Shown here piece by piece: positions 4,559 through 23,904 of a stretch of 26,181 nucleotides of DNA. The notes under the pieces are model-generated. The model was not told where the DNA came from. It was given only the letters and a program-made list of their open reading frames with translations, and made no database searches. The position numbers and the translations under genes were made by a program. Position 1 is the stretch's first letter. Each line of letters begins with the position of its first letter. Source of the stretch: a virus; the IMG/VR virus record IMGVR_UViG_3300032562_002558, positions 1 to 26,181 of that record, one strand, 5' to 3'.

Positions 4559-4907
4559 ATTGCCCCCTTAAATTTGTATAGATTCCATTGCTTGCATAAC
4601 ATAAGACGACCTTCTTTGGTATCAACTTATCATCAGTACGTTTAGGCTTATCGGCAATTAAATGAGAAACTTTAATTCTTTTTTCCAAAGGCTTTTATTA
4701 CTCATTTTGTCACAGTGCCAAATGTCTACTTTTGGCACTGAACCTAATCCCACCGAATTCTCCTCGAATCCAAGATCAAACTCGTGCCAAAACCTCAGCC
4801 AGAATCAAGGTGCCAGATATTGACAACCAGGTCAGGTTGTGGCACTATTGTCTGGGCAATTAACGGGAGAGTCAGTCACCACTGTGTTTTTTTAACAAGG
4901 AGAAAAT
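4559..4907. promoter_or_regulatory. Promoter region with five GTGCCA/TGGCAC motifs
   Basis: This 349-bp gap upstream of the orphan gene carries five copies of one hexamer: GTGCCA at 4715, 4784 and 4810, and its complement TGGCAC at 4733 and 4840. The first two make a perfect 10-bp inverted repeat (4713-4722 CAGTGCCAAA and 4731-4740 TTTGGCACTG). The last two form a wider inverted pair. A repeated operator for a DNA-binding regulator is the simplest reading. TGGCAC also resembles the -24 element of sigma-54 promoters, but no GC pair lies at the required -12 spacing. Confidence 0.5.
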
Positions 4908-5534
4908 ATGTTTTTGTTTACGTCTGAATTGACAGATTTGTTGGCGGGGGATTGGCGTCTGCAGAAGGATGGTTCATGGCGTTCCCTCAGCAGGGGAACA
5001 TGTTCCTTACAGGACACCGACTTCACCACGGAGAATCCAGGCGAGATAGCTCCCATGCGGAGGACTACCATTCCATTGGGAGGGACCACTTACGATATCG
5101 ATCCAGAGATGTGGTCACCGCCGCAGCCGGTACTGCATCACGCTTCTCGCGTTTTTCGCAAGGACTATCCAGATGAGCCGTTATTTGACCGGCTAAGAGA
5201 GGTCATCGCGGCGGGCAGTAATAAAACAATGAACAGGCTTATACTCAACGTGCATGGAGAATTCGAACTTCGCCAGAAAAGGCCATCGTCCTTTGATCCA
5301 ACCATCGTTGTCAAGTTTGAAGCGTTTCCCGCCAAGGGCGGTTACGTTGGGTCAAAGGCTGCAAAGGACGAAAACTATCTCCAGGATATCTATTTGGCGG
5401 CGATGTTACACTGGAGGGACCACCTCAAAAGCGGCAAGACACAGCTCTATGACGATACTTACGCTGCAATGGCCACGCCTGATGTGCGACAGGAATTGAA
5501 AGAGATCAACGCTAACTGGAAACCTGGGTACTAA
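4908..5534 (+). CDS. Hypothetical protein, 208 aa, upstream of the recombinase
   Basis: A good AAGGAG site lies 6 nt before ATG. The protein is soluble, without a signal peptide or membrane segments, and has no motif I can name. Noticeable segments are WRLQKDGSW near the N-terminus, TTYDIDPEMW, HASRVFRKDYPDEPLF, a beta-like stretch LILNVHGEFELRQK, and a helical end AAMLHWRDHL. It is the nearest gene upstream of the serine recombinase, in the same direction with a 132-nt gap. Its leader holds five copies of a GTGCCA motif, so its expression is probably controlled. Base composition is less AT-rich than the exported-protein genes to its left. Function unknown. Confidence 0.75.
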   Translation: MFLFTSELTDLLAGDWRLQKDGSWRSLSRGTCSLQDTDFTTENPGEIAPMRRTTIPLGGTTYDIDPEMWSPPQPVLHHASRVFRKDYPDEPLFDRLREVIAAGSNKTMNRLILNVHGEFELRQKRPSSFDPTIVVKFEAFPAKGGYVGSKAAKDENYLQDIYLAAMLHWRDHLKSGKTQLYDDTYAAMATPDVRQELKEINANWKPGY

Positions 5535-5666: not shown

Positions 5667-6290
5667 ATGTCTCAACGAATCGGCTATGCCAGGGTAAGCT
5701 CAAAAGACCAGAATCTCGATGGTCAACTGGATATGCTGAAGGCCGCAGGGTGCCAAAAAGTGTATGCGGACAAAACTAGCGGTGTAAGTGAATCACGTCC
5801 GGAGTGGGACCGCCTACTTGAATTCATCAGACCTGGTGATTCAGTGGTTGTGGCCGAGTTGTCCCGGATGACTCGATCGCTTTCGCACCTCTTGACCCTC
5901 GTTGATGAGTTCAAGAAGAAAGAGATTCATCTCGTTTCCCTTCGTGAAAACATCGATACGACGTCTGCAACGGGGCGAGCCTTCATAGGCATGATGGGCG
6001 TAATTAACCAGATGGAAAGAGAGCTAAAGTCCGAACGCGCTGCCGCTGGTAGGTCTGCAGCAAGAGCCAGGGGGAAGACCGGGGGACGGCCTAAAACAAG
6101 CACAGAGAAACTGGAAAAGGCAAGGATACTGTATGAAGATGGCGGCTACACTGCGGCTGACCTTTGCAAAACCTTCGAGATCGGCAGACGCACTTTTTTT
6201 CGCCACCTCGCTGAAATAGGTCAGGTCGTATGCGAAGCCAAGAGGGGAGAGATCGCAAATCCTCCACAATCGACAGTAGAGGATTTGTAG
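5667..6290 (+). CDS. Small serine recombinase (resolvase/invertase family), 207 aa
   Basis: This is a site-specific recombinase that cuts DNA through a phosphoserine link. The start at 5667 has GGAGAG about 8 nt upstream and puts the catalytic motif where the family has it: RIGYARVSS, nucleophile Ser11, with Arg9 beside it. Arg44 (in SESRPEW) and the SRMTRS segment around 67-71 supply the other active-site arginines. GRAFIGMMGVINQMEREL (about 104-121) is the dimer/E helix. About 160-182 (YTAADLCKTFEIGRRTFFRH) is a C-terminal helix-turn-helix for site recognition. Length and layout match Tn3-type resolvases and Hin/Pin invertases; all key residues are present, so it should be active. An intrinsic terminator overlaps its end, and the repeat array begins 38 nt after the stop. 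Confidence 0.92.
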   Translation: MSQRIGYARVSSKDQNLDGQLDMLKAAGCQKVYADKTSGVSESRPEWDRLLEFIRPGDSVVVAELSRMTRSLSHLLTLVDEFKKKEIHLVSLRENIDTTSATGRAFIGMMGVINQMERELKSERAAAGRSAARARGKTGGRPKTSTEKLEKARILYEDGGYTAADLCKTFEIGRRTFFRHLAEIGQVVCEAKRGEIANPPQSTVEDL

Positions 6291-6295
6291 TTTTT
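6256..6295 (+). terminator. Intrinsic terminator overlapping the recombinase stop
   Basis: CAAATCCTC (6256-6264) and GAGGATTTG (6279-6287) form a perfect 9-bp stem with a 14-nt loop. TTTTT follows at 6291-6295, right after the TAG stop. The recombinase transcript is therefore expected to end before the repeat array, so an RNA from the array would need its own promoter or arise from readthrough. Confidence 0.65.
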
Positions 6296-6327
6296 ATTCC
6301 GATGCGATTGATCCTTTATAAGTTGGT

Positions 6328-6793
6328 GGATGAGTCTTTTGGATTTGAATGCCTTGATGACTATTGAAAAGGCGTACTTCTTGTGCGTTTCGACAGGGGA
6401 AAACTGGATAAGTCTTTGAGGCATAGAGACTATTGAAATGAAGGAATCAGTCCAGTCAAAATCCAGAACTCGATAAATAAGCCTTCCAGGTTTTAGAGGC
6501 TATTGGAATTTGTCATACCCCTCTCAGATAAGGGTAGTTAAAAGGTGGATAAGTCTTTGATGTTTAGATGCTATTGGAATAGTTATGCTTGCCGAATACG
6601 GTTAGTATACACCAGATAGATACGTCTTCGGCTCATATAGACTATTGAAAATCCTTCGGTGTACAGCAGTTAAGAAATGCCTTTTGATGAATAAGCCACT
6701 AATTTTAGCGGCTATCGAGAAATGACCTCGTGTAATCGCAGTCTGTTTGCGTGGGAGGGTGAATAGGTCTTTAAGATTTATATGTTATGAAAG
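6328..6793 (+). repeat. CRISPR-like array: seven degenerate structured repeats, no cas genes
   Basis: Repeats lie at 6328-6370, 6406-6439, 6475-6509, 6547-6580, 6618-6651, 6689-6721 and 6761-6793. The first carries about 9 extra nt in its loop; the others are 33-35 nt. Their tail motifs are spaced 69, 70, 71, 71, 70 and 72 bp apart. The intervening 35-39 nt segments do not resemble one another. The consensus is GGATAAGTCTTT, a loop of about 7 nt, then AGAGACT and ATTGAAAT. AGTCTTT pairs with AGAGACT in repeat 2. In repeats 3 and 6 the stem changes on both sides (AGCC with GGCT), which preserves pairing; repeats 5 and 7 pair weakly. A hairpin followed by an 8-nt ATTGAAA-type tail is the design of type I/III CRISPR repeats. 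True CRISPR repeats are nearly identical to each other, however, and these are not. An alternative is a set of recombinase-binding sites. Confidence 0.75.
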
Positions 6794-6846
6794 CAGTGCA
6801 ACATCGTTTGCAGCACAAACTCAGCCACAGATAGTTGGTTAGTAAT

Positions 6847-6945
6847 GAATTTCCCCGCTGCAAGCAACGGGGTATCTTCTTCAGTACAGCATCGCTGCTG
6901 CGATGCAATACATCAATCGCCCCAAGGGGCGGGGAATTTACCCTG
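6847..6945. repeat. REPIN-like element (inverted REP pair)
   Basis: AATTTCCCCGC (6848-6858) and GCGGGGAATTT (6929-6939) are near-complementary head sequences in inverted orientation. Each belongs to its own hairpin: CCCCGCTGC with GCAACGGGG (6853-6872), and CGCCCC-AA-GGGGCG (6918-6931). A third perfect stem, CATCGC with GCGATG (6890-6905), lies between them. Two inverted REP units around a spacer is the REPIN form mobilised by RAYT (IS200/IS605-like) transposases. No RAYT gene is in the window. Confidence 0.6.
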
Positions 6946-6950
6946 AGGGA

Positions 6951-7325
6951 TTAAATAACTTTATGATAATTCGGGTATCGTTCAAGCCACCGGCTTCTTT
7001 GTCTCGCTTTAAAGAAGTAGGTTATATAGAATAATAGGCACCCTACTAAAGCGATCTTCCAAAGGCAGAAAAAAGATGTAATCGCGACAAAAATCGAAAG
7101 ACTTATGAAGAAATTAACCAAATAACTGATCGAGACATCTTCTGGATCGTACCGGAGGTCCATATTATTAATCTCGGCAAGTTCTTCGATTGTGAATGTA
7201 TACGTATTTGTTTCTTTGGTTTTTACATTGCGGAAAAACAGTGTTATTTTGTTTCCCTCCGGATCGAATGAGTCCACTGTACCAAATTTTAGATGTTTTA
7301 GCCACATTCCTTGTTTGATTTGCAT
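6951..7325 (-). CDS. Small membrane protein with an SH3-like N-terminal part, 124 aa
   Basis: The start follows a GGGGGG ribosome binding site. Residues about 5-50 (GMWLKHLKFGTVDSFDPEGN, then ITLFF) resemble the compact beta-barrel that opens CarD-like and similar small domains, including the K/R-x-G-x-V turn. Two hydrophobic segments follow, at about 67-86 (LVNFFISLSIFVAITSFFCL) and 88-105 (WKIALVGCLLFYITYFF). A short basic tail (ARQRSRWLERYPNYHK) is probably cytoplasmic. It lies downstream of the truncated helicase in the same direction, separated by 158 nt. No assigned function; the SH3-like reading is a guess from pattern. Confidence 0.65.
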   Translation of the reverse strand: MQIKQGMWLKHLKFGTVDSFDPEGNKITLFFRNVKTKETNTYTFTIEELAEINNMDLRYDPEDVSISYLVNFFISLSIFVAITSFFCLWKIALVGCLLFYITYFFKARQRSRWLERYPNYHKVI

Positions 7326-7483
7326 AAATACCCCCCGACCATAAATGGTTTCTTTATCTGGCTTGGTATTGGTTCATCACTGCACTGAAATTTCGAGATA
7401 ATTGAATGTAAAAGTCAGGTCCTTATCATTTGGGCTAACAAACTGTAGCTGTCCCTCTTTGTCCATATATCTGTATAGACCAC

Positions 7484-9820
7484 CTATTTATATAACTCCA
7501 GAGTCATATCCCTTGCCAAAACATCAAAATATTTCCTTGCGCTCCAGTCTGGCCGCTCACCGATAACGTAAAACCTTGTTTTCGCACGGCTTATGGCGAC
7601 ATTCAAGAGATTGGGTTTTCCTGCGGCCCAATCACGAACACCGGAATTACTGCCGCCGAGAACCATTATAACTACTTCAGCTTCTTTACCTTGTGTGGTG
7701 TGCACTGTACCGACTTTCAGAGAATTTAACTTAAACTCCCTACCAATAACCCTGAGTTCCTTGACCACATCTCGAAAAGGAGAAATAAGAAAAATATCGT
7801 TCACTGACACTCGATACGTCATGGTGAGGTCTCGGAGAAGCGTTTTGAGGGCTTCTCCTTCGGCAGGTAACCAATGGTTACCGCCTCCAGGGCACTTTGG
7901 GACATGTATCCACCTACTCGGGGGCCAGGGAACATCAGAAGGCTCTTTTTGGTGCACCATCAATCCACCATAGGCAATGGCGTTGGAGATTGTGAACATC
8001 GGATCATCACACCGACGATGAACACGCAGGGGGGCACCTACCCATTGAGCGTCCGCGTCCATTTCGACTACAGTGCCGATTGCTGTCGACTGATCTGCCA
8101 GCAACTGGACGGATGTAACAGACGGGTACAATCGTTTATCGACGTTCCCTTTCCATCCGGCAAGCGACGCTTCAACAGTACCGGGGATGGTAACAACCGG
8201 CTCTAGCTGCAAAGGGTCTCCGACAACGACAGTACGCCGTGATCGCCAGATAGTAGCAGCGGCAGCCTGTGGTGTCGCCTGCCCGGCTTCATCGATCAAA
8301 AGCCAGCCAAGGCCCTCACCTCCAATCGCTCCAAAAAGGCTGGATACAGAGGCAAATGTAGTAGAGATTACCGGGCATACGAGGGTAAGGCTGTCAAAGG
8401 CAGTTTGGCAGGCGTCACGATCAGAGATGCCATTGCTGAGCATACTCATGGCAAGTCCCAAGTTGCCCATTATCTGCTGTGAGTGGTTCTCTATGAAGCT
8501 CTTGTGAAGTTCTAGAGCGGAGAGGAACACCTTGATTCTTGCTTCTCGCCATTCCGGATATGCCCAAGGGCTGGATTTCTCTTGTTCAGTGACATGGGCT
8601 GTTAGATCTGGCCAGTACGGTCCTAGCCATTCACGATCGCGCAATAGCGCTTGTTCGATTTTGGTGTGGTTAGCCTGCATTTCCTTTTCCTGGCGGCTAA
8701 GCATGATGAGTTCGTTTTTGATGTAATCTTTTTGACGATTCCAATCCGAGTATTCTCTCTTTAGCTCGCATTCAGCATCTTCGAGCGGTTGTAATTGCTC
8801 CATAATACGGTGGAAGTTTGATTGCCATTCACGATGTGATCCACCGAAGGTAGATATCCAGTCTAGAATGCCCGGTCGGGTGCCCTGAAGACGGTCTAAC
8901 TGGGAATTCAAGGCTGATATACACTCAGACTTTTCATACAAGCATTTTGCCATGGTTTCTACCTTTGCTTCTGTACTTACTAATTGGGGACGCCGAGTAA
9001 CCTGTAACTTACAATTCTGTTTTATGCTATCCGCAAGTTCAGCTAAAGTTTCTACATATTTGCTGATTTTGCCTACTTTGTCGCGCAACAGGTGCTCCGC
9101 CTGTAATGCCATATTAAACTTCGACACGGCATCTTCCCACGGGATCGTCGGAGGTTTGGCCCCTTCTCTCAAAGCAATTAATCTCGCCCTTAATCCGAGG
9201 ATATCCCCTTTCCCGTCCCAGCCGGTCCACCAAAAGGTATTAACGAAATCACTGCGGTTAGACTTGTTGCCGAGCCGACCTGCTATCATTGCCCAAGCGG
9301 GGCGATCTTTCGGATCCAGTAGCAGTCCAGCCAAATCGGTAAAAATATCAGTTTTGCCTACCCACTTCTGATCGATCGCAGTTTCCTTTGGTAATTCGAG
9401 AGAAAGGTTCTCTACTGCACCATTATTGCTTGATGCCACAACAATGGTGAACCCTGAAAGCTCTTTCGATAAACTGTGATAATTATGAGGGTAATCGGCA
9501 ATCTTGATTGTCCTTTTAGCAACAAATGCATCCTTCCCAAGTCTTGCCAATATCTTGGCACGTTCAACCGATATGGCAGCAACGACATCACGGAGCAGAG
9601 TTGTTTTCCCTGTGCCTGGGGGGCCATTGATCGCAAAAATCCCACTGTCTTGCGCAAGGTCTTTCCACAGTGCATTGATCGCCACCTGCTGGCTCCAGAC
9701 CAAAGGATGTTTGGCCGGCCAGCAGCCTTGTGGGAAATTATATGGTGACAAGATTGAGAGTGCCTTATCCCGCTCTTTTCGGACATCTATGCGTTGGATG
9801 TTTGCTGGTGGCTTCAGGTA
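7484..9820 (-). pseudogene. SF1 (Upf1/Dna2-like) helicase, N-terminally truncated
   Basis: This encodes a superfamily 1 helicase with a two-part motor. Counted from the TTG at 9751: Walker A GPPGTGKT is at 43-50, and the IVVASSNNGAVENL segment (motif Ia region) is near 105. A long helical insertion fills about 230-400. Walker B LLIDEAGQ is near 485 with VVGDPLQLEP (motif III) after it. TVHTTQGKEA is near 685 and NVAISRAKTRF (motif VI) near 717. The C-terminal motor is complete. Coding continues upstream of the TTG ([20 protein letters not shown]) until about 9818, where it meets the chemoreceptor remnant and soon hits a stop. No ribosome binding site supports a start there. The N-terminal domain of the original protein is therefore missing. 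Such helicases occur in phage-defence and RNA-processing loci; the specific role is unknown. Confidence 0.8.
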
Positions 9821-10731
9821 TTGAGAGCCTCGGTGCTAAGTCCGACCAAATAGGTGAGATTGTGGGAACAATCGAGGACATTGCTGATCAGACCAATTTA
9901 TTAGCACTCAATGCTGCCATTGAGGCAGCCCGGGCCGGCGAACAGGGGAGAGGGTTTGCCGTAGTTGCTGACGAGGTCAGAGCCCTGGCAGAGCGGACGA
10001 CCCATGCCACCAAGGAAATCGGTGCAATGATCAAGGCCATCCAGAAAGAGACCCAAACCGCAGTCAGGGTAATGGGTGAGGGTGTCGCTGAGGTTGACAG
10101 GGGGGCCGGAGAAGCAGCCCGTTCCGGCGAGGCACTACAGGGGATTTTGCAGCAGATTGGGGAGGTGACTCAGCAGATCCACCAGATAGCTACCGCCGCA
10201 GAGGAGCAGACCGCAACCACCAGCGAGATCAGTACCAATATCCACCAAATAACCGACGCCTTCGTCAAGGCGGCGCAGACCGCCCACCAGACGTCCGTAG
10301 AGGCGGACAATCTCAACAAGCTTTCAGGAAGCCTCCAGGACACCGTCAGAAGGTTCAAAACCAAGGAGAGTGAGGTCCTCATGCTGACCGTAGCCGCAAA
10401 TGATCACCGACTCTTCGTCAACAAGATACGGGCCTCTGTAATCGGTGATGCGCAACTCGATGCAAGCGGACTGGCCAATCACCACACCTGCCGGTTTGGG
10501 AAATGGTACGATAACGAGGGCGGACATATCTGCGGGGATCTGGCTTCGTTCCGATCGATAAACGCCCCCCATGAGCGGATCCACTCACTTTCGAAGGATG
10601 CCGTGAATGCGGTTAATTCGGGCAATCAGGCCAAAGCCAACCAGTTGATGCTGGAGATCGACGCGGTTTCCCATGACATCATGGTGAAGCTTGAGGAAAT
10701 CAGGCGTGAGCACCTGGGCAAGGAGGTCTGA
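9820..10731 (+). pseudogene. Chemoreceptor fragment: MCP signalling domain plus CZB domain
   Basis: The frame from 9820 encodes the cytoplasmic half of a methyl-accepting chemotaxis protein. It starts at [15 protein letters not shown] and passes the kinase-control hairpin tip ([20 protein letters not shown], then [18 protein letters not shown]) and the [13 protein letters not shown] return helix. It ends in a CZB zinc-binding domain ([10 protein letters not shown], with further His residues in [10 protein letters not shown]). Sensor, membrane segments and HAMP are absent. In-frame codons upstream of 9820 are the antisense of the helicase gene and have no ribosome binding site. I therefore regard this as a 5'-truncated gene rather than a soluble receptor, although a fused short product from 9730 cannot be excluded. 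Confidence 0.8.
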
Positions 10732-11004
10732 GGCATAATCATCATGATGGCGCCATAAGCATAAGTAGCCAATTGATAAACATTTTTTATCAACTATACA
10801 ATTGGCAGAGAATTGCTAATTATACGCCTTATTCTGGTTTTCCTTCCCAAGCGCCTTTGTTTTAAAGGTTTTTTGGTATCTATGCATCTCCGTTAAAAAC
10901 ATTCCGAGTGCGCCTAGGCGACCGGTGTGAAAGGCGCCGGCGGCTGCGGCGCCCGAGGTAGGCGGCAGCAAAGCGGAAAAACCAGAGAAAGGCCCCCGGA
11001 TGGA
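10732..11004. other. Non-coding region downstream of the chemoreceptor fragment
   Basis: Two hairpins are visible. GCCAATTG (10768-10775) pairs with CAATTGGC (10799-10806), with an alternative inner stem TTGATAAA/TTTATCAA (10773-10793). The GC-rich GGCGCCG (10933-10939) pairs with CGGCGCC (10947-10953). Neither has a clear T-tract. There is no convincing gene. This is likely host-side DNA up to the possible prophage end near 11005. Confidence 0.45.
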
Positions 11005-11053
11005 TGTTGCGCGAAATTTTTTTGGCAGTGATTTGGGTTTTTTTTGGCAGTGA
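11005..11053. repeat. Two 15-bp direct repeats, candidate prophage right end
   Basis: TTTTTTTGGCAGTGA occurs at 11017-11031 and again at 11039-11053, a 22-bp period or about two helical turns. The segment from 11005 reads TGTTGCGCGAAA. Mu-like phages end in TG/CA and carry repeated transposase-binding sites close to their ends, and this is where the right end should fall, beyond the last phage gene and its terminator. The exact boundary is a guess. Confidence 0.35.
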
Positions 11054-11061
11054 GCCGCTTC

Positions 11062-11107
11062 AAAAAAAAGGCGGACCGCACAGGGTTTAATACCCGTTTA
11101 ATCCGCC
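11062..11107 (-). terminator. Intrinsic terminator after the phage methyltransferase gene
   Basis: Read on the minus strand, GGCGGA (11107-11102) pairs with TCCGCC (11075-11070), with an inner GGGT/ACCC stem, and is followed by eight T residues (11069-11062). It lies about 190 nt past the stop of the methyltransferase gene and would end the leftward phage transcript. Confidence 0.65.
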
Positions 11108-11125
11108 CTAAATTGCCCTATGTAT

Positions 11126-11140
11126 TGAAAATGATTGTCG
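11126..11140. promoter_or_regulatory. Fur-box-like sequence (weak)
   Basis: TGAAAATGATTGTCG matches the 7-1-7 Fur pattern TGATAATNATTATCA at 11 of 14 defined positions. It is followed by TTATTGCTAACCTTTT, similar to what follows the stronger site at 12268. No promoter or target gene is evident next to it. Confidence 0.25.
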
Positions 11141-11296
11141 TTATTGCTAACCTTTTTAGCCTACCTTTTTATGGGCTTCTCGCTCACATGCTCCAGGCCG
11201 ACGCTGGAAGGCTCTTTTCGGGTCTATGCCAACACCCCACCGCTATTATTTTCTCCCTCTTATGCCCCCTTTTTGGGAGCTTGCATCTTTTTGCCC

Positions 11297-12058
11297 TTAC
11301 CAGGTCTTTATGATCATCTCGCGGCTCTGGTTGCTCTGGCCACCACCACCGACTGTGTAGCTGATGGCCACCTCTTTGCTTACGAACCCTTTGAAGATTT
11401 CTTTCATCTCTGGATGGTCGTTGATAGTCAGGATAGCCTTACCTTGCATGGTCCGCATGAGCTCGGCCATAGCGTGATACTGATCGATACCGAAGGGAGC
11501 TCCATAACCCTCGACCTTCCAGTACGGCGGATCTAGGAAGAAAAAAGTCCCCGGTCGGTCGTACTTCCTGATGCACTCCTTCCAGTCCAGATTTTCAATA
11601 TAGCACCGGGCCAACCTCATATGAGCCTGGCTTAGATCCTCTTCAACCCGAGTAAGGTTCAGCCTGGGGGGAGAGGTAGTGGCTGTGCCAAAACTGCGCC
11701 GGGAGACCTTCCCTCCAAAGGACATCTTCTGCAGGTAAAAGAAGCGCGCTGCGCGCTGGATATCGGTGAGGGTTTGCGGCGGGGTTTCGCCCAGCCATTC
11801 GAACATCTGGCGCGAGACCAAGGCCCACTTATACTGCCGAATGAACTCCTCCAGGTGATGCTGGATAACACGATAAAGGGCTACCAGCTCACCGCTGAAA
11901 TCGTTCAGTACCTCGACCTTGGAGGGGTCCTTCATAAAGAACAATGCCGCGCCGCCGCAGAAAGGTTCGCAATAACAGATATGCTCCGGAAACATCGGAA
12001 TGATCTCTTTTGCAAGTCTTCTCTTGCCACCTATCCAAGGAATTACAGGTTTAAACAT
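11297..12058 (-). CDS. DNA adenine methyltransferase (Dam/D12 class), 253 aa
   Basis: This enzyme transfers a methyl group from S-adenosylmethionine to the N6 of adenine in DNA. Motif X is PWIGGKRRL (7-15), the SAM-binding motif I is EPFCGGAALFF (31-41), and the catalytic motif IV is DPPYW (176-180). The order X-I-IV is that of the alpha/D12 group, as in Dam. The length is close to family size. GAGAGG lies about 10 nt upstream of ATG. It sits at the far end of the tail operon, the place where Mu carries its DNA-modification gene mom, so it may protect phage DNA from host restriction. Its target site cannot be read from the sequence; GATC is only a guess. Confidence 0.9.
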   Translation of the reverse strand: MFKPVIPWIGGKRRLAKEIIPMFPEHICYCEPFCGGAALFFMKDPSKVEVLNDFSGELVALYRVIQHHLEEFIRQYKWALVSRQMFEWLGETPPQTLTDIQRAARFFYLQKMSFGGKVSRRSFGTATTSPPRLNLTRVEEDLSQAHMRLARCYIENLDWKECIRKYDRPGTFFFLDPPYWKVEGYGAPFGIDQYHAMAELMRTMQGKAILTINDHPEMKEIFKGFVSKEVAISYTVGGGGQSNQSREMIIKTW

Positions 12059-12471: not shown

Positions 12472-14928
12472 TCAATAAAACCATTTGGTGAGATTCGCGT
12501 CATAACAAAGATGGTATAACTGCCCAGTGGTGAGAGTTAATGCTCTCGAAATATTCCCTGATATTCCAAAGGGTACGGCTCCGTCGGCAATTATGTTGAT
12601 GCAGCCATTGGCTCCATCACCTGACGCCCCCCAAAAAATGTTCGCTATGGAATTCACGGTGGTTGTGCCCGTCAAGTGAAAGGTCTGTCCCGTGGGCGTT
12701 ACCGAATTGGCCGAGGCGACGTTGGCGCCCATGGTGGTTGCCACCGGTCCGAATGCGGTAATTATCCCCGTTGAACCCGCGCAAAGCCGGTTATTGAGAC
12801 CATTTGTGAAGATGCAAGCAGGCAAAGCGGTCCTAGTCCCGAATCGGGTGTACTGGCCGGTGTCGTGCCGGAACTGCCCCTCAATAGTGGCCCCGTTTTC
12901 GATTGACCACGCGGCCGCCGCACCGTTAGCTGCGGTGTTGTCAAACTGCCAAATGTTGCTGATCGACGCTGTATTATCCGTCTGTGTCGAGTGCATCTCC
13001 GTCGCTGAATTGACTGAGCCCGTCTGCGGACGGATTACCCACTGGCTGGTGGGGGAGCTGCCATTGACGCCACCCGTACCATTTAAAACGGTCCTCCCGG
13101 TCCCGCTCGGAGTGAGGTTGATATTCTGGTTACTTCCTCCAGCGGCAAAGGTGAGTGCACCAGTGCCTGCTATAGAACCGTTGCTGCTACCGGTCCCCCC
13201 GGAAGCAACAGGCATAATCCCCGTGGGGGTAAAGGGGGAATTGGGAGAGGTGCTCACCGATGCTTCATAGACGTGGTATATGGCGTTGTTGGTATCTGAG
13301 CCATTAATATCGAAGATCACACGCATCCACACAGAACCGCCGGCGGGGGGCGCCACAAACGGTATTGAAATGGAGTAAGGCACCGAAGAAATGGGGAGCC
13401 ATAGGCGAGTAAGCCCTGTGTTGTCGTAGTTGCCAGTGAGGAAATTTAGGCTTTTATAACTGTCGCCTGCGTTTTGGAGCCCTAACTGTATCGGACTGTT
13501 GGAATGAGCGAGCCCTGTGTCACATTTATAGGTAAGGTTGACGTAGTAAGTGGCACCCGCCGTTAAAGAGGTGGTGAGCTGCCCCATTTCAATCGCAGCG
13601 GCCGTGGACGGTTGCGCCACCTTAGCCGATTGCGTGGTACCGAAGAGCACCGTATCGGTCGTATCAGCCGTAATCTGCCCCGCGCCGTTCCCTGATTCGG
13701 TCCAGGCAGCAAAAACGTCCGCCCCTCCCGCGCCGTTGGTCTGAAAGGCAGAGTTGGAAAGAAGAGAAACGGAAGGGTTGAGCTGCTGCGTGGTATCAAA
13801 GCGAGCGCCAAAAACAGATTTAGGTTTCGCTGAAATCACTCCGGCCGAAATGTCGATCTTCGGATTGAGCGAAAGGTTATCGATAACCACTACGTTAGCA
13901 TTTTTGCCGCTGAAGTTGAAATCGTAGAAGGTCCCGGTAATGTCCACGTTGGACGCCTGTTTGATGTTAAACACCCCGGACGACTTCGTAACGTAGGCGA
14001 TATAGGTGCCGTTCTCCAGTTTGGTGTTATTTGTCCCAACGATCTCAACAGAATCCGGCCAGGTATCGAGGGTATAATTGACGTAGTTCCCCTCGATGTA
14101 GGGCGCCACCATTACATCGTTATCCTGGCGGCTGCTTGTTATGAGCGGTACTGTATTTGAAGTATCCCCCTCAAGTCTGAGGTTCCATTTGGCGTTCCCG
14201 ACAGACTTGAAAGAGAGAAAGGTGTTCCCCTGGCCATGCCTTTTGGTGGTACCTGCACCCCCGTTGAAGTTGGTCTCCAGGTGAAGGAATTTATTGTGGT
14301 CCGAGGCCGATTGCCCGGTGAACTCGATAAGTGCGCCGTCGCCCAGATTGTAGCTGCTCACCACATCGATGTTGCAGAGGAGAACCTGATTAAGGTAGAG
14401 GCCGACAACATAGGTACCGTTGATGAAAACTCTTTCCAGGGCGAAGTGTCCTACCGCTGTAGCGACGACTCCGCGAGCTCCCCCGATGATTTTCACATTG
14501 TGTATTCCGCCCCAATGGTTACCGTATCCATCATTACCCATGATCAGGTCATCATGCGTCGAACTGGTAAAATGCAGTTCAGTACCGCCGGGTCCATAAC
14601 TCGCCCCATGAATATTAACATTCGGTGGTACGGTAAACCCCCCAACGGAGTTATCAAAGTACCACGCCCCTGCGGGCATTATCAAATCACCGCCCCCCTT
14701 AGCAGACAGATAATTTACCGCTCGAATGAATTGGGCACCGCAATCAGCTCCACCAACTACTGCGCCAGGTTGCCCGTTTATCGAGGCACGGAAATCCAGC
14801 CAAGGCCCCTTAGAGATAATGTCATCACTTTTCAAAGTGCTGACCAATGTTGGAGGTACCGGCGCAGCAACAGCTGAATGCCCCAAGAGAACCAACGACA
14901 GCAACGACCAAAATAATAATATCTTCAT
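12472..14928 (-). CDS. Phage tailspike/receptor-binding protein with Sec signal peptide, 818 aa
   Basis: The first 22 residues (MKILLFWSLLSLVLLGHSAV, then AA) are a signal peptide, and AAGGGGG lies 4-5 nt before ATG, so the start is firm. Residues about 60-360 look like a right-handed beta-helix of the pectate-lyase type: a GGDLIMPAGAWYFDN entry, NVNIHGASYG, then repeated short beta-turn strands such as FLHLETNFNG and ALERVFING. About 400-560 resembles a carbohydrate-binding jelly roll. GIMPVASGGTGSSNGSI (about 575-590) is a repeat common in phage fibres, and the C-terminus is beta-rich. It probably binds or trims surface polysaccharide. It is the last of three tail-fibre genes at the end of the baseplate cluster. 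The signal peptide is unusual for a virion protein. Confidence 0.8.
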   Translation of the reverse strand: MKILLFWSLLSLVLLGHSAVAAPVPPTLVSTLKSDDIISKGPWLDFRASINGQPGAVVGGADCGAQFIRAVNYLSAKGGGDLIMPAGAWYFDNSVGGFTVPPNVNIHGASYGPGGTELHFTSSTHDDLIMGNDGYGNHWGGIHNVKIIGGARGVVATAVGHFALERVFINGTYVVGLYLNQVLLCNIDVVSSYNLGDGALIEFTGQSASDHNKFLHLETNFNGGAGTTKRHGQGNTFLSFKSVGNAKWNLRLEGDTSNTVPLITSSRQDNDVMVAPYIEGNYVNYTLDTWPDSVEIVGTNNTKLENGTYIAYVTKSSGVFNIKQASNVDITGTFYDFNFSGKNANVVVIDNLSLNPKIDISAGVISAKPKSVFGARFDTTQQLNPSVSLLSNSAFQTNGAGGADVFAAWTESGNGAGQITADTTDTVLFGTTQSAKVAQPSTAAAIEMGQLTTSLTAGATYYVNLTYKCDTGLAHSNSPIQLGLQNAGDSYKSLNFLTGNYDNTGLTRLWLPISSVPYSISIPFVAPPAGGSVWMRVIFDINGSDTNNAIYHVYEASVSTSPNSPFTPTGIMPVASGGTGSSNGSIAGTGALTFAAGGSNQNINLTPSGTGRTVLNGTGGVNGSSPTSQWVIRPQTGSVNSATEMHSTQTDNTASISNIWQFDNTAANGAAAAWSIENGATIEGQFRHDTGQYTRFGTRTALPACIFTNGLNNRLCAGSTGIITAFGPVATTMGANVASANSVTPTGQTFHLTGTTTVNSIANIFWGASGDGANGCINIIADGAVPFGISGNISRALTLTTGQLYHLCYDANLTKWFY

Positions 14929-14939
14929 ATGTACCCCCT

Positions 14940-15323
14940 TTATCCTTTCAAAATTCGCCAGTTGGTGCCGTCGCTGTAAAATGTCCGTCCCATGCCATTG
15001 GAGAGATCAAGCCCCGACTGCCCCTCGACCGTTTGACCAGCCCCGCCATTTACTGTCAGAAGGTTGCCGGTGGCTCCGATGTTCTCGCAGTAAATATGGG
15101 ATCCCATCTGGCCTACCGCAGTCGGAAGCACCCAGACAAGAGCCCCCGCAGTGGTATCGCCCAGACTAATTGACGGATAACTTGCGAGCGTTGTAGATAC
15201 GGCTACGGTCGACACGTCTGTCAGGAGGGAGTTGAGGAAGGCCACTGAGACCTTGGTTCCCTTCTGCCCAGTTAAGGGATTTCCAGGATGGAATAAACCG
15301 TCAGATGTTTCTGGCCTCTGCAT
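14940..15323 (-). CDS. Small phage fibre-associated protein, 127 aa
   Basis: ATG follows AGGGGG at 5 nt and lies 9 nt behind the collar-fibre gene; the tailspike begins 11 nt further on, so the three form one tight unit. The N-terminus (GNPLTGQKGTKVSVAFLNSL) repeats the opening of the collar fibre (GNPVTRAPGTRVTAAFLNGL), which suggests a shared attachment segment derived by duplication. The remainder is beta-rich, with a GNLLTVNGGAGQTVEG stretch and an ending FYSDGTNWRILKG typical of short fibre tips. There is no signal peptide here, unlike its two neighbours. Probably a second fibre or fibre accessory protein. Confidence 0.7.
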   Translation of the reverse strand: MQRPETSDGLFHPGNPLTGQKGTKVSVAFLNSLLTDVSTVAVSTTLASYPSISLGDTTAGALVWVLPTAVGQMGSHIYCENIGATGNLLTVNGGAGQTVEGQSGLDLSNGMGRTFYSDGTNWRILKG

Positions 15324-15332
15324 CCTGTCCCC

Positions 15333-16301
15333 CTAATATTTGATGCAGAACAACACGGCCATGTTGCGCGGCCGGGTCTCGGTCCCGCCGACCGAAAGCA
15401 TCGGGCCTCCGTCTCCAACGCCGACAGCCTGCTCAGAGCCCGATCCCGTGTTATCTGTGCCTGTGAGAGAACTCGCATAGGGAGGTTTAAGTAGGTACTG
15501 GTAGACCCCGTCCGAGTGTGTATGAGACTTAAACTGATCAGCCTGCCAACTTCCTATTGCACGCCCAGGGTCAATGCCACGACCAAGGTCACCGCCTCGT
15601 AAAAACTCACCTCGGAAATCCGGTAGATTAAATGTCGAGACAGAGTCACCAGCCCCCCAGGTCGTACCGATTGCTGCAAAAAGGTTGAGGAACGCTGAAC
15701 GCAACACAGCGCGGCCGTCGCAGATCAGCCAGCCATCGGGGGCGCTCGCCATGGCGAATGCCATCACTGCGCCCGGAGGGACCAATTGAATTGCCGTACG
15801 CCCATTAAGCGTGCTGGCGTCGGTTACCGGTGGGGGCGGTTGGTTCTGGTAGTTTATCAGTTGGTAGGCGCTGCCTGCCCAACTGACACCTATCACCTGC
15901 CCGACCCTGATATCTCCGGCAATTAGCTCCTGGCCCACGTTTTTGTAAAGTGAGACAGCCGCCAAGCCGTCCACTGCTATGGTGGTAGGCCCGGTATTGT
16001 CATGGCCTACCTTGACCCAGATCGGCATCCCCTCTACATGGGCGGTCAGCGCAGGTGGCGGCAAGGCGATCACGATCGCATTGGCCGAGCCGGTGTCAAC
16101 CGCATAGTCCAGAACCCCAGAGCCGTCGGCATTCTTGCCGTCATGCCGATGGTTATTGAGCCCGTTCAGGAAAGCAGCTGTGACGCGAGTCCCGGGAGCA
16201 CGGGTGACCGGGTTACCGTCGGTGAACGTGGTCTTATCGGCAAGCGCCACTCCGGCAAGGAGCTGCAGGAAGATGAATAGTAAAATGAGCCGTTTAATCA
16301 T
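15333..16301 (-). CDS. Phage tail collar fibre with Sec signal peptide, 322 aa
   Basis: The C-terminal half is a phage tail collar domain. It contains PPGAVMAFAMASAPDGWLIC (about 175-194), then FNLPDFRGEFLRGGD and a SHTHSDG metal-binding-like motif, and it ends ETRPRNMAVLFCIKY. This is the standard form of short tail fibres and the collar fibre family. The first 21 residues (MIKRLILLFIFLQLLAGVAL, then A) are a clear signal peptide, directly behind a strong GGAGG 7 nt before ATG, so this start is real. After it comes a short segment (GNPVTRAPGTRVTAAFLNGL) shared with the next gene, and NNHRHDGKNADGSG. It takes the position of Mu gene S. Export of a tail fibre is unexpected. Confidence 0.85.
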   Translation of the reverse strand: MIKRLILLFIFLQLLAGVALADKTTFTDGNPVTRAPGTRVTAAFLNGLNNHRHDGKNADGSGVLDYAVDTGSANAIVIALPPPALTAHVEGMPIWVKVGHDNTGPTTIAVDGLAAVSLYKNVGQELIAGDIRVGQVIGVSWAGSAYQLINYQNQPPPPVTDASTLNGRTAIQLVPPGAVMAFAMASAPDGWLICDGRAVLRSAFLNLFAAIGTTWGAGDSVSTFNLPDFRGEFLRGGDLGRGIDPGRAIGSWQADQFKSHTHSDGVYQYLLKPPYASSLTGTDNTGSGSEQAVGVGDGGPMLSVGGTETRPRNMAVLFCIKY

Positions 16302-16314
16302 GGGCCAACCTCCG

Positions 16315-16911
16315 TTAAAGATAGGTGAAATTGAGCTGAATGTGAGCCGGTTTCAAATCGTTCAGTACTGCCTCCAGGCCGGGAGTCGGCGGAGTACCGG
16401 GTGAGGAAACTACTACCACCTCCCAGATCCAGTTGAGAACGGGGTCCTCCTGGGAGAGAGTATCTCCAGCCTGCCCGACGCCTGCCGAGAAGTCAGTCCA
16501 TTGCTCCTCGAGAATCAACTCATCATCCGCGCAGAGCCAGTCCGCCATACACGTGGTGTAGTCCTGGATGTAGATGGTGTAGCCAAGGCTCGCTGCCAAG
16601 GCCACCAAGTAGGGCTTCTTGATGTCTCCGGACGCAGTGTGCCGGAACCAGACCACGTGCTGGCGCTCTTCGATCGATGCCCCGTCAGAAGGCATGATCT
16701 GATACTCGGCTTCCCAATCAGTCAGTAGCTCCACGCTGGTAAGCGGGTTCAACTCGCGCAACAGATCATCGACGCGGCCTGCGATCCGGGCCGGCTCCTG
16801 GGCGAGGCCGGTCAGGAGATTGGTCATTACTCCAGCGTCTCGGGGCCAGGCGAGACCGGAGGGGAGCAGCGCCTGCAGCTGGGCCAGATAGGCGTCGCCG
16901 GTCAGAGCCAT
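16315..16911 (-). CDS. Mu gp48-like baseplate protein (YmfQ/DUF2313 family), 198 aa
   Basis: The product corresponds to Mu gp48, a baseplate component that links the wedge to the fibres. The N-terminus (YLAQLQALLPSGLAWPRDAG) is the family signature, followed by LLRELNPLTSVELLTDWEAEY. The middle (GYTIYIQDY) and the end (LKPAHIQLNFTYL) also fit. Length is typical. It overlaps the end of gp47 by 10 nt and precedes the collar fibre by 13 nt, as expected for tightly coupled late genes. Confidence 0.88.
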   Translation of the reverse strand: MALTGDAYLAQLQALLPSGLAWPRDAGVMTNLLTGLAQEPARIAGRVDDLLRELNPLTSVELLTDWEAEYQIMPSDGASIEERQHVVWFRHTASGDIKKPYLVALAASLGYTIYIQDYTTCMADWLCADDELILEEQWTDFSAGVGQAGDTLSQEDPVLNWIWEVVVVSSPGTPPTPGLEAVLNDLKPAHIQLNFTYL

Positions 16912-17963
16912 GTCATGGCCCCCATCACCACGCGCTGGTAGGCAGTGTAGGTAAAATCAGCAGCGGGAACGGTGAGCGCCTGGTCGACCACGCCGGTAGC
17001 CAGGGAGACCGCTTCGTTGATATGACTAAACGGGATCGAGCCGCCGTTCTCGCCTTCCCGGACGGTTAGATCAGTCAGTTCAGCGACGACGGAGGTCTGC
17101 ACTGCTGCAGTGTTCGGGGTGAGACGCACGGTGACATCGAGCGGAGCGGGTACCCAGGGGAGCACCCTGAGAAACTTCACATCGTTTGGGCAGATGTCTA
17201 CGATTTTAGACCGCACGGCGGCTAGCAGGTCGTCGCTGGGCATTTCGGAGCCGGTGATGGCCGGGTCGGAAACGATGACCAGGTCGACGGTGCCTGGACC
17301 ATTCCCACAGGGAATGGTCCAGCCTCGCGCGACTCCGGTAATCTCCTGAGCCCAGGTGACGTAATCGTATTTATTACCGCCTGCAGGCTTGCGTCGCTTG
17401 TAGGCCAGTACCCTGGCGCGGAAGGGTTCGGTGCCCTCGATATCGGTTCCGTAAAGGATGCCAGACTCCGCTACTATCCCGGTGCCAGCTACGCCGTCCA
17501 GGGTATTAAGCAGGTTGAGCTGCGCGCCGATCGCACAGTTACCAAGGCTCCCGGCAACCAGGGCGATGATGCTGACTCTCGCGCTGCCGCCAATGATCGT
17601 CGCATCGGATGTGACGGAGTACTCCGCACCATCGGCACGCTGCCAGACGGTCCCTTCTGGGATGACTGCTCCGTTATTGCCCGGCACGGCGATCGCGCCC
17701 AGGGCGAAAGTTGCCGGGTTCTTGGTGAGGCCATACTCGGCCCCGCCAATCACCAACTGGTCGTCATCGCAGGAGGTAAAGAAGATCTGCCGGGCGGTCC
17801 AGTCCAGGTAACCGTACTGGCCATGCGCCAGGCCGGCAGAGGCGCGGGCGAGCACTGCGGTATTGGAGCGGCGCAGGGTGGAATCGGTGCCACCCATACG
17901 GCTATCGATATCGGTACTCACCCGGGCAACCAGGTCGCTCAATAATGGCCTGTTAAACGGCAT
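16902..17963 (-). CDS. Baseplate assembly protein J-like (Mu gp47), 353 aa
   Basis: This is the wedge protein of contractile-tail baseplates (Baseplate_J family). The N-terminal FNRPLLSDLVARVSTDIDSR, then AHGQYGYLDWTARQIFF, and the beta-rich middle (VPGNNGAVIPEGTVWQRADG) are typical. So are the ALVAGSLGNCAIGAQLNLL segment and the RKPAGGNKYDYVTWAQEITG region. The ending contains the conserved VREGENGGSIPFSHINEAVS. ATG directly abuts the stop of gp46, indicating translational coupling. Mu-like order is preserved. Confidence 0.92.
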   Translation of the reverse strand: MPFNRPLLSDLVARVSTDIDSRMGGTDSTLRRSNTAVLARASAGLAHGQYGYLDWTARQIFFTSCDDDQLVIGGAEYGLTKNPATFALGAIAVPGNNGAVIPEGTVWQRADGAEYSVTSDATIIGGSARVSIIALVAGSLGNCAIGAQLNLLNTLDGVAGTGIVAESGILYGTDIEGTEPFRARVLAYKRRKPAGGNKYDYVTWAQEITGVARGWTIPCGNGPGTVDLVIVSDPAITGSEMPSDDLLAAVRSKIVDICPNDVKFLRVLPWVPAPLDVTVRLTPNTAAVQTSVVAELTDLTVREGENGGSIPFSHINEAVSLATGVVDQALTVPAADFTYTAYQRVVMGAMTWL

Positions 17964-18410
17964 TTAAACCCCCATCCAAAACAGTTCGAAACGAAAGCGC
18001 GCCGGATCTCCGGTGGGCCGGTTAATCTGCACAGTCAAGCCGATCATCCCTTCCCGCGCCTTTACCGCGGTTGCCGTAATGCTGTCGGCTACGCCATCCT
18101 CGATCATCCAGGCGAGCGCTTCCTCGGCGTATTCCTTGGCCCTGCTGAGGGCCTCCGGGAGCTGCTTTTCCCGGGAGAGCAGCCAAAGCCGTGAGCCGAT
18201 CAGATCTCCGTCGACCGCGGGGAAGGCATCGGCCCACCAGCCGCGCCGATCTGAGCCGTTATCGGGCAGTACGTCGTCGGGATCGGCGCGCCGATCGGTG
18301 AAGAGGGAGATGAGAACCGCGGTCTCAAAACCGTTATCTTCGGCGAGTCCCGGACCGGCCATCTGCCATTGTCCGGTACCGTCCAGCCAAAAGGTCCGGA
18401 TGTCTGCCAC
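17964..18410 (-). CDS. Mu gp46-like baseplate protein, 148 aa, GTG start
   Basis: I take the GTG at 18408-18410 as the start. GGAGG lies 8 nt upstream, and translation from there gives MADIRTFWLDGTGQWQMAGP, which agrees with the family. The longer in-frame reading from 18500 overlaps the previous gene and has no site. The hallmark is ETAVLISLFTDRRADPDDVL, then RRGWWADAF. This protein corresponds to phage Mu gp46 and P2 W-type wedge proteins (gp25-like lysozyme fold, non-enzymatic). It is followed directly by gp47. Confidence 0.88.
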   Translation of the reverse strand: MADIRTFWLDGTGQWQMAGPGLAEDNGFETAVLISLFTDRRADPDDVLPDNGSDRRGWWADAFPAVDGDLIGSRLWLLSREKQLPEALSRAKEYAEEALAWMIEDGVADSITATAVKAREGMIGLTVQINRPTGDPARFRFELFWMGV

Positions 18411-18411
18411 G

Positions 18412-18738
18412 TTACTTCCCTCCGGAGAGCTCGGAAGCCTTGGCTGCCAGCTTGGTCTCGATACGGGCAATGCGCTCGGTGTAAAGGTCGATCTTGGCAA
18501 GAAGCGTCTGAAAGGGCTTAACGTAGGTATCGATGACGGCCTTGGCCCAGAGGACCATCTGAGGCAGGGTCGCGGGCGGGTCCATCAGCGGCTCCAGGCT
18601 CGTCATCTGATCCTGGGCGAACTTCTTCATATTACCGAGCTGATCTAGCACCTGGGCCTTGAACGTCACCAGCATATCCGGTGTATGAATAGCGTCTATC
18701 TTCCGCTCGATCGCATCGAAAAAATCTTTATCTGCCAT
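18412..18738 (-). CDS. Hypothetical phage protein within the baseplate cluster, 108 aa
   Basis: An AGAGGTG site lies upstream of ATG. The protein is almost entirely alpha-helical and probably coiled (NMKKFAQDQMTSLEPL, IDLYTERIARIETKLAAKAS). There is no membrane segment. It sits between gp45 and gp46, where classical Mu has no gene, and it overlaps or abuts both neighbours. Together with the membrane protein just before it, it forms a two-gene insertion into the conserved block. A tail accessory or lysis-related protein is possible, but nothing in the sequence settles it. Confidence 0.7.
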   Translation of the reverse strand: MADKDFFDAIERKIDAIHTPDMLVTFKAQVLDQLGNMKKFAQDQMTSLEPLMDPPATLPQMVLWAKAVIDTYVKPFQTLLAKIDLYTERIARIETKLAAKASELSGGK

Positions 18739-18739
18739 G

Positions 18740-18970
18740 CTACACCTCTGAGTCTTTGAGCCCTTGTTCGGTAAGAGCTTGAATCCTCTGACCTAACCCG
18801 CTTAGCTGGTATCCTCTTAATTCTACTGAGATCAGTCTTAACGCTTTACGCGCCGCTGGTTCTGGCGCTTTTTGATATCTCCGAACTGCTGCAACTACAA
18901 TCAAGCTGAAAGCCAAGCCCATGCTCAACCCGGAAAGAAAAATGATGCAGTCCATTCTGTTGATCCTCAA
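18740..18970 (-). CDS. Single-span membrane protein within the baseplate cluster, 76 aa
   Basis: One hydrophobic segment (CIIFLSGLSMGLAFSLIVVA, about 8-28) is followed by a basic, soluble tail (RRYQKAPEPAARKALRL). The first ATG overlaps the stop of gp45. A second ATG five codons on (18955) has GAGG at a better distance and may be the true start. Membrane proteins do not belong to the virion baseplate, so this could be a lysis factor (holin- or spanin-like) or host-directed protein placed here. No family is recognised. Confidence 0.65.
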   Translation of the reverse strand: MRINRMDCIIFLSGLSMGLAFSLIVVAAVRRYQKAPEPAARKALRLISVELRGYQLSGLGQRIQALTEQGLKDSEV

Positions 18971-19473
18971 TCAATGCTGACTATGCTGCCGTTTACTACT
19001 GTAAAAGATTTCCCGGTGGCATCGATAAGGATGCCATTAGCGCCATTGGTAACAGTAACGATGGCCGCCTCGACTTCATTCTCAGTGAACAGCTTGACGG
19101 CCTGCACCTCGGCGGTGTTGTCGGCCCGGCAGATGATTCGGGTCCCGACATGGTTGTAGAGCGCCGACTCCCCCTCGGCCAGGTCGCGAGGCCGGTAGCG
19201 CCCATCGTCCAGGGCGACGATGACCAGATGATCGCGGTTGCCGGAGACCGACAGCGTGACCGCCTGAGCTCCCTGGAAAGGACGGGAAGTGAGACCGTAG
19301 TTCTGGATGCGCTCAACGGAGCCGTGGGTCTCATCGGCCAGGATGGTAACCTGGACGCGCTGGATCGGCGCGGAGTCGTCGATCAGGCTGACCACGGCGC
19401 GACCTACCATCAGGCGCAGGGCGCGGGCATAGGGAGCGATCAGTTTGTTGAAGGCGCGGATGATGTGTTCCAT
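18967..19473 (-). CDS. Mu gp45-like baseplate spike protein, 168 aa
   Basis: This corresponds to Mu gp45, the trimeric membrane-piercing spike at the tail tip (gpV type). The N-terminus (MEHIIRAFNKLIAPYARALR, then LMVGRAVVSLIDDS) leads into an OB-fold part with VQVTILADETHGSVERIQNYGLTSRP. Next comes the typical AVTLSVSGNRDHLVIVALDD. The C-terminal third (HVGTRIICRADNTAEVQAVK to the end) is a strongly beta-repetitive needle. Start and length fit the family. It overlaps the upstream gpP gene by 34 nt, so the two are probably coupled. Confidence 0.9.
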   Translation of the reverse strand: MEHIIRAFNKLIAPYARALRLMVGRAVVSLIDDSAPIQRVQVTILADETHGSVERIQNYGLTSRPFQGAQAVTLSVSGNRDHLVIVALDDGRYRPRDLAEGESALYNHVGTRIICRADNTAEVQAVKLFTENEVEAAIVTVTNGANGILIDATGKSFTVVNGSIVSID

Positions 19474-20561
19474 CTGGCGGCCTCCTTCTTATCATGGCGC
19501 CGGTGCTTGTCCGGGAGGTTGATCAGCTCGAAGGCTTCCGGCAGGCAAAGGTCCATCTGTGCCTGGCTGCCGCTTTGCTCGCTGAGCGTCAAGCGCACCT
19601 GGGAGATGAGAAGATCCCCGGTGTAGCCCATGTAATCGTCCTGGACCTGGACCAAGTTGTTGGGCAGCCAAAGCCCGGCGGCATGTTCCCAGCCGGTCAC
19701 GGTGTAGCTGACCCGGTTCCCCTTGCCGACCCTGATGTTGCGCTCCCAGGTGGCGCGGTCCATATAGGTGCTGCCGTCGCCCTGGTAGGCGATGGTGACG
19801 TGCGGACGGTACCGGGTAATTGACTTGTCGGGAACTGAGGCCTTGGTCTGAAAGAAGTGTTTAGGCTCCTCATCAGCCGCCGCTTCTCCCGCCACGTGGT
19901 GCTCCCAGGTCCCTTTACCCATTGCCGTCTGGCCCTTGACGACGTATTGGCTGAAACGGTCTTTCCAGCTGAACTGCCCGCTGGCGCTCTCGATGTTCAC
20001 TCCCTTCACCAGGGCGGTGGCTATCCGGTTGGTACCGGTGCGGGTAAGTAGAAGATTACCCTTGCCATCCGATACCAGGAGCACTCCGCGCATACGGGCG
20101 GCGCGGTCCAGACACTCGAAGGCGGTCTCTCCATGCCAGATAGCGAAGCTGCTGAAAGGCTTGCCGACATTGATCACCGCCACGACCTTGATCCCGAAGG
20201 GTACGCAGAGGTCGGTAGCGATCCTGGTAAGGCTCGCGTTATGCCATTCTCCGGACTTGTGCACGGCCGCGCAGTCCACCAGGTCGCCGGTCTTATCGCG
20301 ACCGGTGATCTTGATGGTATGGGACTCCTTGTCATAGCTTGGCGCGAAGTCATCCACGTAGCCGCTGATCACCTGGGTGGAACCCACCAGGAGCTTGCAG
20401 GCGTCGCCGGGGTTTATGCGCCATGCTTCGGGCTGGGCCGGCCAGCGCTCGGTGGTCGTCAGCTCGAAGTTCCCCGCGATCTGCTCCATGCCAAGGGTGA
20501 TGCCCACGGACTGCCAGCCGCCATAATTGACGCCGTTTACCTGCAGGGTGACATCAGGCAT
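19440..20561 (-). CDS. Mu gpP-like tail hub protein, 373 aa
   Basis: This is the baseplate hub protein of Mu-like phages (gpP/gp44, related to T4 gp27 and P2 gpD). It opens with VTLQVNGVNYGGWQSVGITL, then ERWPAQPEAWRINPGDACKL. It continues with ISGYVDDFAPSYDKESHTIK, then ITGRDKTGDLVDCA, and a C-terminal region with GWEHAAGLWLPNNLVQVQDD and YTGDLLISQVRLTLSEQSGS. All of this matches the family order. It overlaps gpN by 8 nt upstream and gp45 by 34 nt downstream. Confidence 0.9.
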   Translation of the reverse strand: MPDVTLQVNGVNYGGWQSVGITLGMEQIAGNFELTTTERWPAQPEAWRINPGDACKLLVGSTQVISGYVDDFAPSYDKESHTIKITGRDKTGDLVDCAAVHKSGEWHNASLTRIATDLCVPFGIKVVAVINVGKPFSSFAIWHGETAFECLDRAARMRGVLLVSDGKGNLLLTRTGTNRIATALVKGVNIESASGQFSWKDRFSQYVVKGQTAMGKGTWEHHVAGEAAADEEPKHFFQTKASVPDKSITRYRPHVTIAYQGDGSTYMDRATWERNIRVGKGNRVSYTVTGWEHAAGLWLPNNLVQVQDDYMGYTGDLLISQVRLTLSEQSGSQAQMDLCLPEAFELINLPDKHRRHDKKEAARWNTSSAPSTN

Positions 20562-23417: not shown

Positions 23418-23420
23418 TTA

Positions 23421-23561
23421 CTAGTCCTGTTTCGGAATGTTTGCCTGATACCTGATCATCCGGCTGAGTGGCATGGCGCCGATATCCGCCGCGCTCCAGT
23501 GTGTCCAGGTGGCGAGGCGAAAGATGAGCGAGTGCAGCGAGCTCCTCAGTCGGTTAATCTC
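23421..23561 (-). CDS. Frameshift extension of the tail chaperone (gpGT-like), 46 added residues
   Basis: After the slip at CGGGGGCGA (23568-23560), the -2 frame reads GAG ATT AAC CGA CTG and stays open for 46 codons to TAG at 23421-23423: EINRLRSSLHSLIFRLATWT, then HWSAADIGAMPLSRMIRYQA and NIPKQD. The joined product has about 160 residues. The extension has no start codon or ribosome binding site suited to independent translation, and it exactly fills the gap between chaperone and tape measure. This is the known arrangement in Mu. A +1 slip would reach the same frame, but the -1 frame stops at once. Confidence 0.75.
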   Translation of the reverse strand, partial: EINRLRSSLHSLIFRLATWTHWSAADIGAMPLSRMIRYQANIPKQD

Positions 23562-23901: not shown

Positions 23902-23904
23902 GAA

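Follow-up and report, generated by a model that had tools for sequence, protein, structure and literature searches.

The virus record IMGVR_UViG_3300032562_002558 of IMG/VR, analysed here over its whole length of 26,181 nt (the window), carries at positions 6325-6791 of its + strand an array of seven direct repeat units that is real and beyond chance. We give a probability of about one half to the reading that this is a decayed orphan type I/III-like CRISPR array, read along the + strand, with unit 1 on the leader side; the dimensions of the array, a stem standing directly before an ATTGAAA-type tag, and the distal wear favour this reading. Searches for cas genes, a leader, spacer targets and relatives gave nothing, nor are the repeats near-identical, and the array is therefore described as a probable CRISPR relic and not filed as a CRISPR array proper. 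We infer its CRISPR ancestry, the loss of its cas genes and its present inactivity; no good evidence was found that the array still works.

Seven diverged repeats in register

Seven recurring units had been claimed in an earlier, sequence-only reading of this DNA, and our analysis bears the claim out. The right anchors (CTATTG) lie at 6361, 6430, 6500, 6571, 6642, 6712 and 6783, with tail-to-tail spacings of 69, 70, 71, 71, 70 and 71 bp. With the unit boundaries drawn from 4 bases before a GATAAG-like left anchor to 9 bases into the CTATTG block, the units are 34-37 nt long with the exception of unit 1 (45 nt), 36 nt being the length of three among units 2-7, and the repeat consensus is GGTGGATAAGTCTTTGAGGTTTAGAGACTATTGAAA. 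The loop is the part most variable in length; the distance from left to right anchor is 21-24, and 32 in unit 1, where an insertion of 8-9 nt in the loop accounts for the excess.

Read along the + strand, unit 1 (6325-6369, 45 nt, with the tail GACTATTGAAAA) is followed by a spacer-like first interval (6370-6402, 33 nt) unrelated to the other intervals. Unit 2 (6403-6438, 36 nt) is the nearest to the consensus, and interval 2 (6439-6471, 33 nt) separates it from unit 3 (6472-6508, 37 nt), in which the stem reads AGCC/GGCT. Interval 3 (6509-6543, 35 nt), unit 4 (6544-6579, 36 nt), interval 4 (6580-6614, 35 nt), unit 5 (6615-6650, 36 nt) and interval 5 (6651-6685, 35 nt) lead to unit 6 (6686-6720, 35 nt), which again has the stem AGCC/GGCT and carries the tail TATCGAGAA. 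Interval 6 (6721-6757, 37 nt) then precedes unit 7 (6758-6791, 34 nt, tail TGTTATGAAA), the most diverged of the seven. The six intervals thus measure 33, 33, 35, 35, 35 and 37 nt; segments of 35-39 nt had been described before, and the two sets of figures differ only by the point at which the repeat is cut.

Profiles built from six units at a time were used as position weight matrices to search for the seventh among some 52,000 background places on both strands of the window. Each of units 2-6 ranked first over all of these places, while unit 7 came third and unit 1 23rd, the latter because its loop insertion is penalised in such a scan; the assignment of units 1 and 7 thus relies in part on their register. 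The mean score of repeat-to-repeat alignments was 11.2, against -3.1 (sd 0.7) for shuffles, and the two-tail pattern CTATTGRAA N56-66 RRCTATTGRAA occurred three times in the window and in none of 100 shuffles. Tandem Repeats Finder did not report the array, as is expected given how far the copies have diverged.

We considered whether the units could be coding repeats of a leucine-rich kind (LRR-like, 23-25 aa), and rejected this on periods that are mostly 70 or 71, which are not multiples of three, and on the lack of any frame open across the array.

Unrelated intervals and one-sided wear

The segments between the units had been said not to resemble each other, and this is upheld by a mean pairwise score of -5.7, compared with -4.5 for shuffled sequence; the intervals are mutually unrelated. 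Their independence was set against a simulation (n=300) in which whole 70-bp units were copied and then drifted at the rate of the repeats, 23% of positions per copy. Intervals that had been duplicated and drifted in this way scored about 7.4, and no simulation gave less than 2.2. The observed scores fall below those of the simulated duplicates, which argues either for independent origins of the intervals, as in the case of CRISPR spacers, or for constraint on the repeats alone.

This result bears on the view that the array arose long ago when a different short element (MITE-like or non-coding) was duplicated in tandem, and that only half of that element can still be made out. Direct repeats amid many pieces of mobile elements, and a MITE-like palindrome adjoining unit 7, would suit such an origin; however, equal drift should have left the intervals alike, which they are not, and the searches turned up no solitary copy of the unit in other places, so that we think a duplication quite unlikely.

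The repeats themselves are off the consensus at 23% of positions, with pairwise identities of about 47-74%. Counted from unit 1 to unit 7, the differences from the consensus number 5, 4, 10, 5, 6, 11 and 14, and the wear increases toward unit 7 (Spearman 0.81, P 0.03); neighbouring repeats show no significant excess of likeness (Mantel P 0.10). CRISPR repeats usually wear first at the trailer end. With the ATTGAAA tag on the right of each repeat, unit 1 would be on the leader side of the array and unit 7 on the trailer side.

Variation among the columns is slightly uneven (variance 1.59, against 1.11 expected; P 0.03). Mild constraint, or the way in which the units were aligned, would account for this; pure neutral decay would not predict it. 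Uneven columns would also suit a series of dyads bound by a protein, for example the partition centromere of a plasmid or element since lost, or a cluster of its operators. In such a series, arms of the type AWWAGTCTYTRA would face one another over a variable centre some 70 bp apart, and the DNA between would be irrelevant. Conserved arms with free intervals would account for the unrelated intervals, the loop is the part most variable in length, and in each unit the mirror symmetry of the two arms, though imperfect, extends beyond the 5-bp stem. Such sites would leave the ATTGAAA tag adjoining the stem as a coincidence, however, and a spacing of 69-71 bp does not correspond to an integral number of turns of the helix; no gene for a partition protein or repressor was recognised among the scanned ORFs, and no relatives of the array were found. 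On balance we regard binding sites as a rather unlikely explanation.

The hairpin

Each repeat can be drawn around a stem AGTCT/AGACT, which in units 1-5 is directly followed by ATTGAAA or ATTGGAA; tag and stem are both visible in these five units, and the stem is weak. In the consensus stem 82% of cells pair, compared with 28-47% when the partner columns are slid, and the loss of pairing on sliding indicates that a stem is present in the consensus; selection is not demonstrated by that alone.

The replacement of AGTC/GACT by AGCC/GGCT in units 3 and 6 had been put forward as a compensatory change that argues for selection on a hairpin. The change is there, but as an argument for selection it comes down to a single pair: columns 17/43 are the only stem pair with changes on both sides, and in units 4 and 7 the same columns form U-G. 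Of 500 shuffles, 95 reached the covariation score computed on the seven units and 265 the count of pairs changed on both sides, neither being significant. Folding z-scores of the single repeats averaged -0.8 and were outstanding only in units 2 and 6, while units 4 and 5 folded no better than shuffles. The evidence for selection on the hairpin is weak.

These figures bear on the proposal of a guide or decoy RNA array, which the sequence-only reading had also named. In a living array of this kind, selection would act on hairpin and spacing, the repeat sequence would be free to drift, and the transcripts, some 70 nt long, would base-pair by way of their unique segments or titrate a protein. The existence of a consensus stem, the paired changes in units 3 and 6, and the precedent of CreA, whose degenerate CRISPR-like repeats remain functional (PMC8501985), speak for it; the covariation, which does not exceed that of shuffles, and the mean folding z-score of -0.8 speak against. 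A promoter scan gave none above chance, Rfam 15 gave no family at gathering score and just chance-level matches at E<=10, and no relatives came to light. We consider a guide or decoy array unlikely, and the stronger form of the proposal, a working array that drifts in sequence from copy to copy and is unlike any described CRISPR or guide-array system, is improbable. Relatives with kept stems, if found, would instead point to an RNA-guided array that tolerates divergence of its repeats, a kind that present CRISPR detectors would overlook.

Resolvase and other neighbours

A TnpR-like serine resolvase gene (5667-6290, + strand; Pfam Resolvase and HTH_7) lies outside the array and ends 34 bp before unit 1. 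Its product is 61-65% identical to Tn3-family resolvases of Pelobacter and Methylomonas and, taken alone, points to Geobacter-like bacteria and methanotrophs. The proximity of this gene lends some interest to a further proposal of the earlier reading, that the units are tandem recombination sites, either accessory sites of the neighbouring resolvase or sites like the attC of integrons. The resolvase, however, has its own Tn3-type res region at 4714-4850 (+ strand, outside the array), with arms GTGCC/GGCAC and a layout matching those of its relatives in Pelobacter, Methylomonas, Geomonas and others, and none of this is shared with the array. The boxes RYYYAAC/GTTRRRY are absent from both strands of 6300-6860, and a covariance model found such an array in none of the 32 nearest resolvase loci. 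Accessory sites and attC sites were thus rejected on their differing arms and the missing boxes; the proposal is contradicted, and we hold it to be highly improbable.

Several other features were seen to the left of the array. The res region and the resolvase gene are separated by an ORF of 208 aa (4908-5534) without a family match; in the relatives only a few bases lie there. A hairpin CAAATCCTCCAC/GTAGAGGATTTG followed by a T-rich run (6256-6298) overlaps the end of the resolvase gene; it looks like a terminator that would separate the resolvase transcript from the array, and was not listed by the terminator scan. No transposase was recognised in the window, and the surroundings of the array yielded no terminal inverted repeat of the Tn3 kind.

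Directly after unit 7, at about 6848-6947, there is a palindromic MITE-like element (GAATTTCCCCGC...GCGGGGAATTTA), pieces of which are 84-89% identical on plasmids of Xenorhabdus, Edwardsiella, Kovacikia and others. Further to the right, an ORF at 7484-9751 encodes a helicase matching the Mokosh MkoC model (E 9e-65), which falls short of about 335 N-terminal residues by comparison with a plasmid relative, and abutting this truncated helicase is an N-truncated methyl-accepting chemotaxis gene (9730-10731) with a C-terminal CZB zinc-binding domain. From about 11.3 kb rightward the record is a Mu-like prophage, with tail sheath, tape measure, baseplate and fibres. The stretch 14887-26181 of this phage is about 99% identical in other IMG/VR contigs (L086, L087, L099 and L101), none of which reaches the array, and 6290-11300 had no match in those contigs nor in related phage contigs. 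The 11 kb on the left appear to be flanking host DNA that holds pieces of mobile elements and of defence elements. Mobile-element fragments and a truncated Mokosh-like defence helicase nearby were counted in favour of a CRISPR relic.

Relatives and spacer targets

A single copy of the array is known. Blastn against phages and plasmids found no relative, the array region having no match there besides the MITE-like piece, and a pattern search of about 85,000 genomes did not find the consensus repeat. Two GACTATTGAAA tails in tandem were absent from 398 genomes. A pattern for the single unit gave no related array in viral contigs; its matches in viral contigs (L002, L003/L004 and L010) and in one genome (L085) are isolated and have no neighbouring units. 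Isolated single matches were likewise all that was seen in 251 genomes of one order and in 277 genomes of one class, in the latter case within an apparent gene. Covariance-model scans of the same number of genomes of one class (277) and of 201 genomes of one order were empty, which is weak evidence with only some 20-30 candidates scored per genome. The absence of relatives thus rests in part on exact patterns and on scans that scored few candidates in each genome.

A looser two-tail pattern picked out 94 loci in viral contigs, of which the covariance model scored 0/94. We rejected these as relatives: their periods are mostly 69, 72 and 75 and they usually lie in open frames, pointing to coding repeats or chance. 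In both respects they contrast with the array.

The spacer-like intervals fared similarly. Blastn found no match for them in 50,697 phage records, the plasmid matches include none that covers the array, and two spacer cores were absent from viral contigs. Against the grounds on which the sequence-only reading had said it could be refuted, the outcome is largely negative: related arrays, spacer matches and, in the seven units, significant covariation all failed to appear.

A probable decayed CRISPR array

Among the three readings offered from the sequence alone, that of an old array without Cas proteins fits best. CRISPR arrays have repeats of about 23-47 nt and unique spacers of near-constant length; here the repeats are 34-37 nt, with one of 45, and the intervals 33-37 nt. 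Their repeats are also near-identical, whereas pairwise identities of about 47-74% represent a divergence far above that of any ordinary CRISPR array. The lengths, the stem followed by the tag, the unique spacers and the one-sided wear together resemble the build of type I/III CRISPR arrays.

The 8-nt tag of such arrays reads ATTGAAAC/G, and 124 papers in which CRISPR is mentioned contain the string ATTGAAAC. In CRISPRmap, 17 of 40 repeat families conserve a tag of 8 nt at their 3' end (PMC3783184), and type I and III crRNAs have an 8-nt 5' handle (PMC5965380).

On this plan a repeat of about 36 nt would consist of an 8-nt 5' part, the stem AGTCT/AGACT with some 10 nt of loop between its arms, and a 3' tag of 8 nt of the ATTGAAA type, and repeats would alternate with unique spacers of 33-37 nt. 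While cas genes were present, Cas1-Cas2 would have added new spacers at the leader end, and an enzyme of the Cas6 type would have cut the transcript below the stem, leaving ATTGAAA as a 5' handle on the product. The cas genes would then have been lost, after which repeats and spacers would have drifted, by about 23% per copy.

The lack of cas genes had been noted before, and holds for the ten ORFs that were scanned (PADLOC), none of which encodes a Cas protein, but the contig extends just some 6.3 kb to the left of the array. An AT-rich leader is absent: with just 34 bp between the stop codon of the resolvase gene and unit 1, no leader remains. As a CRISPR relic the array would be worn to an unusual degree, having kept seven repeats in register after a drift of about 23%, and it would show how relics appear to repeat finders that require near-identical copies.

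Comparison with known systems

The res sites of the Tn3 family and the attC sites of integrons share with the array the presence of imperfect inverted repeats near a site-specific recombinase, and attC sites resemble it further in that their structure is kept while the sequence drifts; the array differs in its arms, in the lack of attC boxes and in having seven evenly spaced copies. The phage-encoded repeat mimics known as Racrs offer a CRISPR-repeat-like hairpin (PMC10651486), which in our case is also found in a prophage-containing record, but Racrs are solitary units that resemble host repeats, whereas the present array has seven diverged copies, apparently in flanking host DNA. In CreA/CreTA, divergent CRISPR-derived repeats keep the positions of tag and stem, as the repeats of the array appear to do, and remain functional (PMC8501985); creA comprises a single spacer with one or two repeats about it, beside cas genes and a toxin, while here there are seven repeats and none of these companions was found. 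CreA and Racrs are precedents for useful degenerate or mimic repeats, and the layout of neither matches the array. As for orphan cas-less type I/III arrays with a ATTGAAAC-type tag, their repeats are nearly identical while those described here share about 47-74% of positions in pairs and come without a leader, a spacer match or a known repeat sequence; what the array has in common with them is the lengths of repeats and spacers, the uniqueness of the spacers, the stem (weak in the array) directly before the tag, and the wear at one end.
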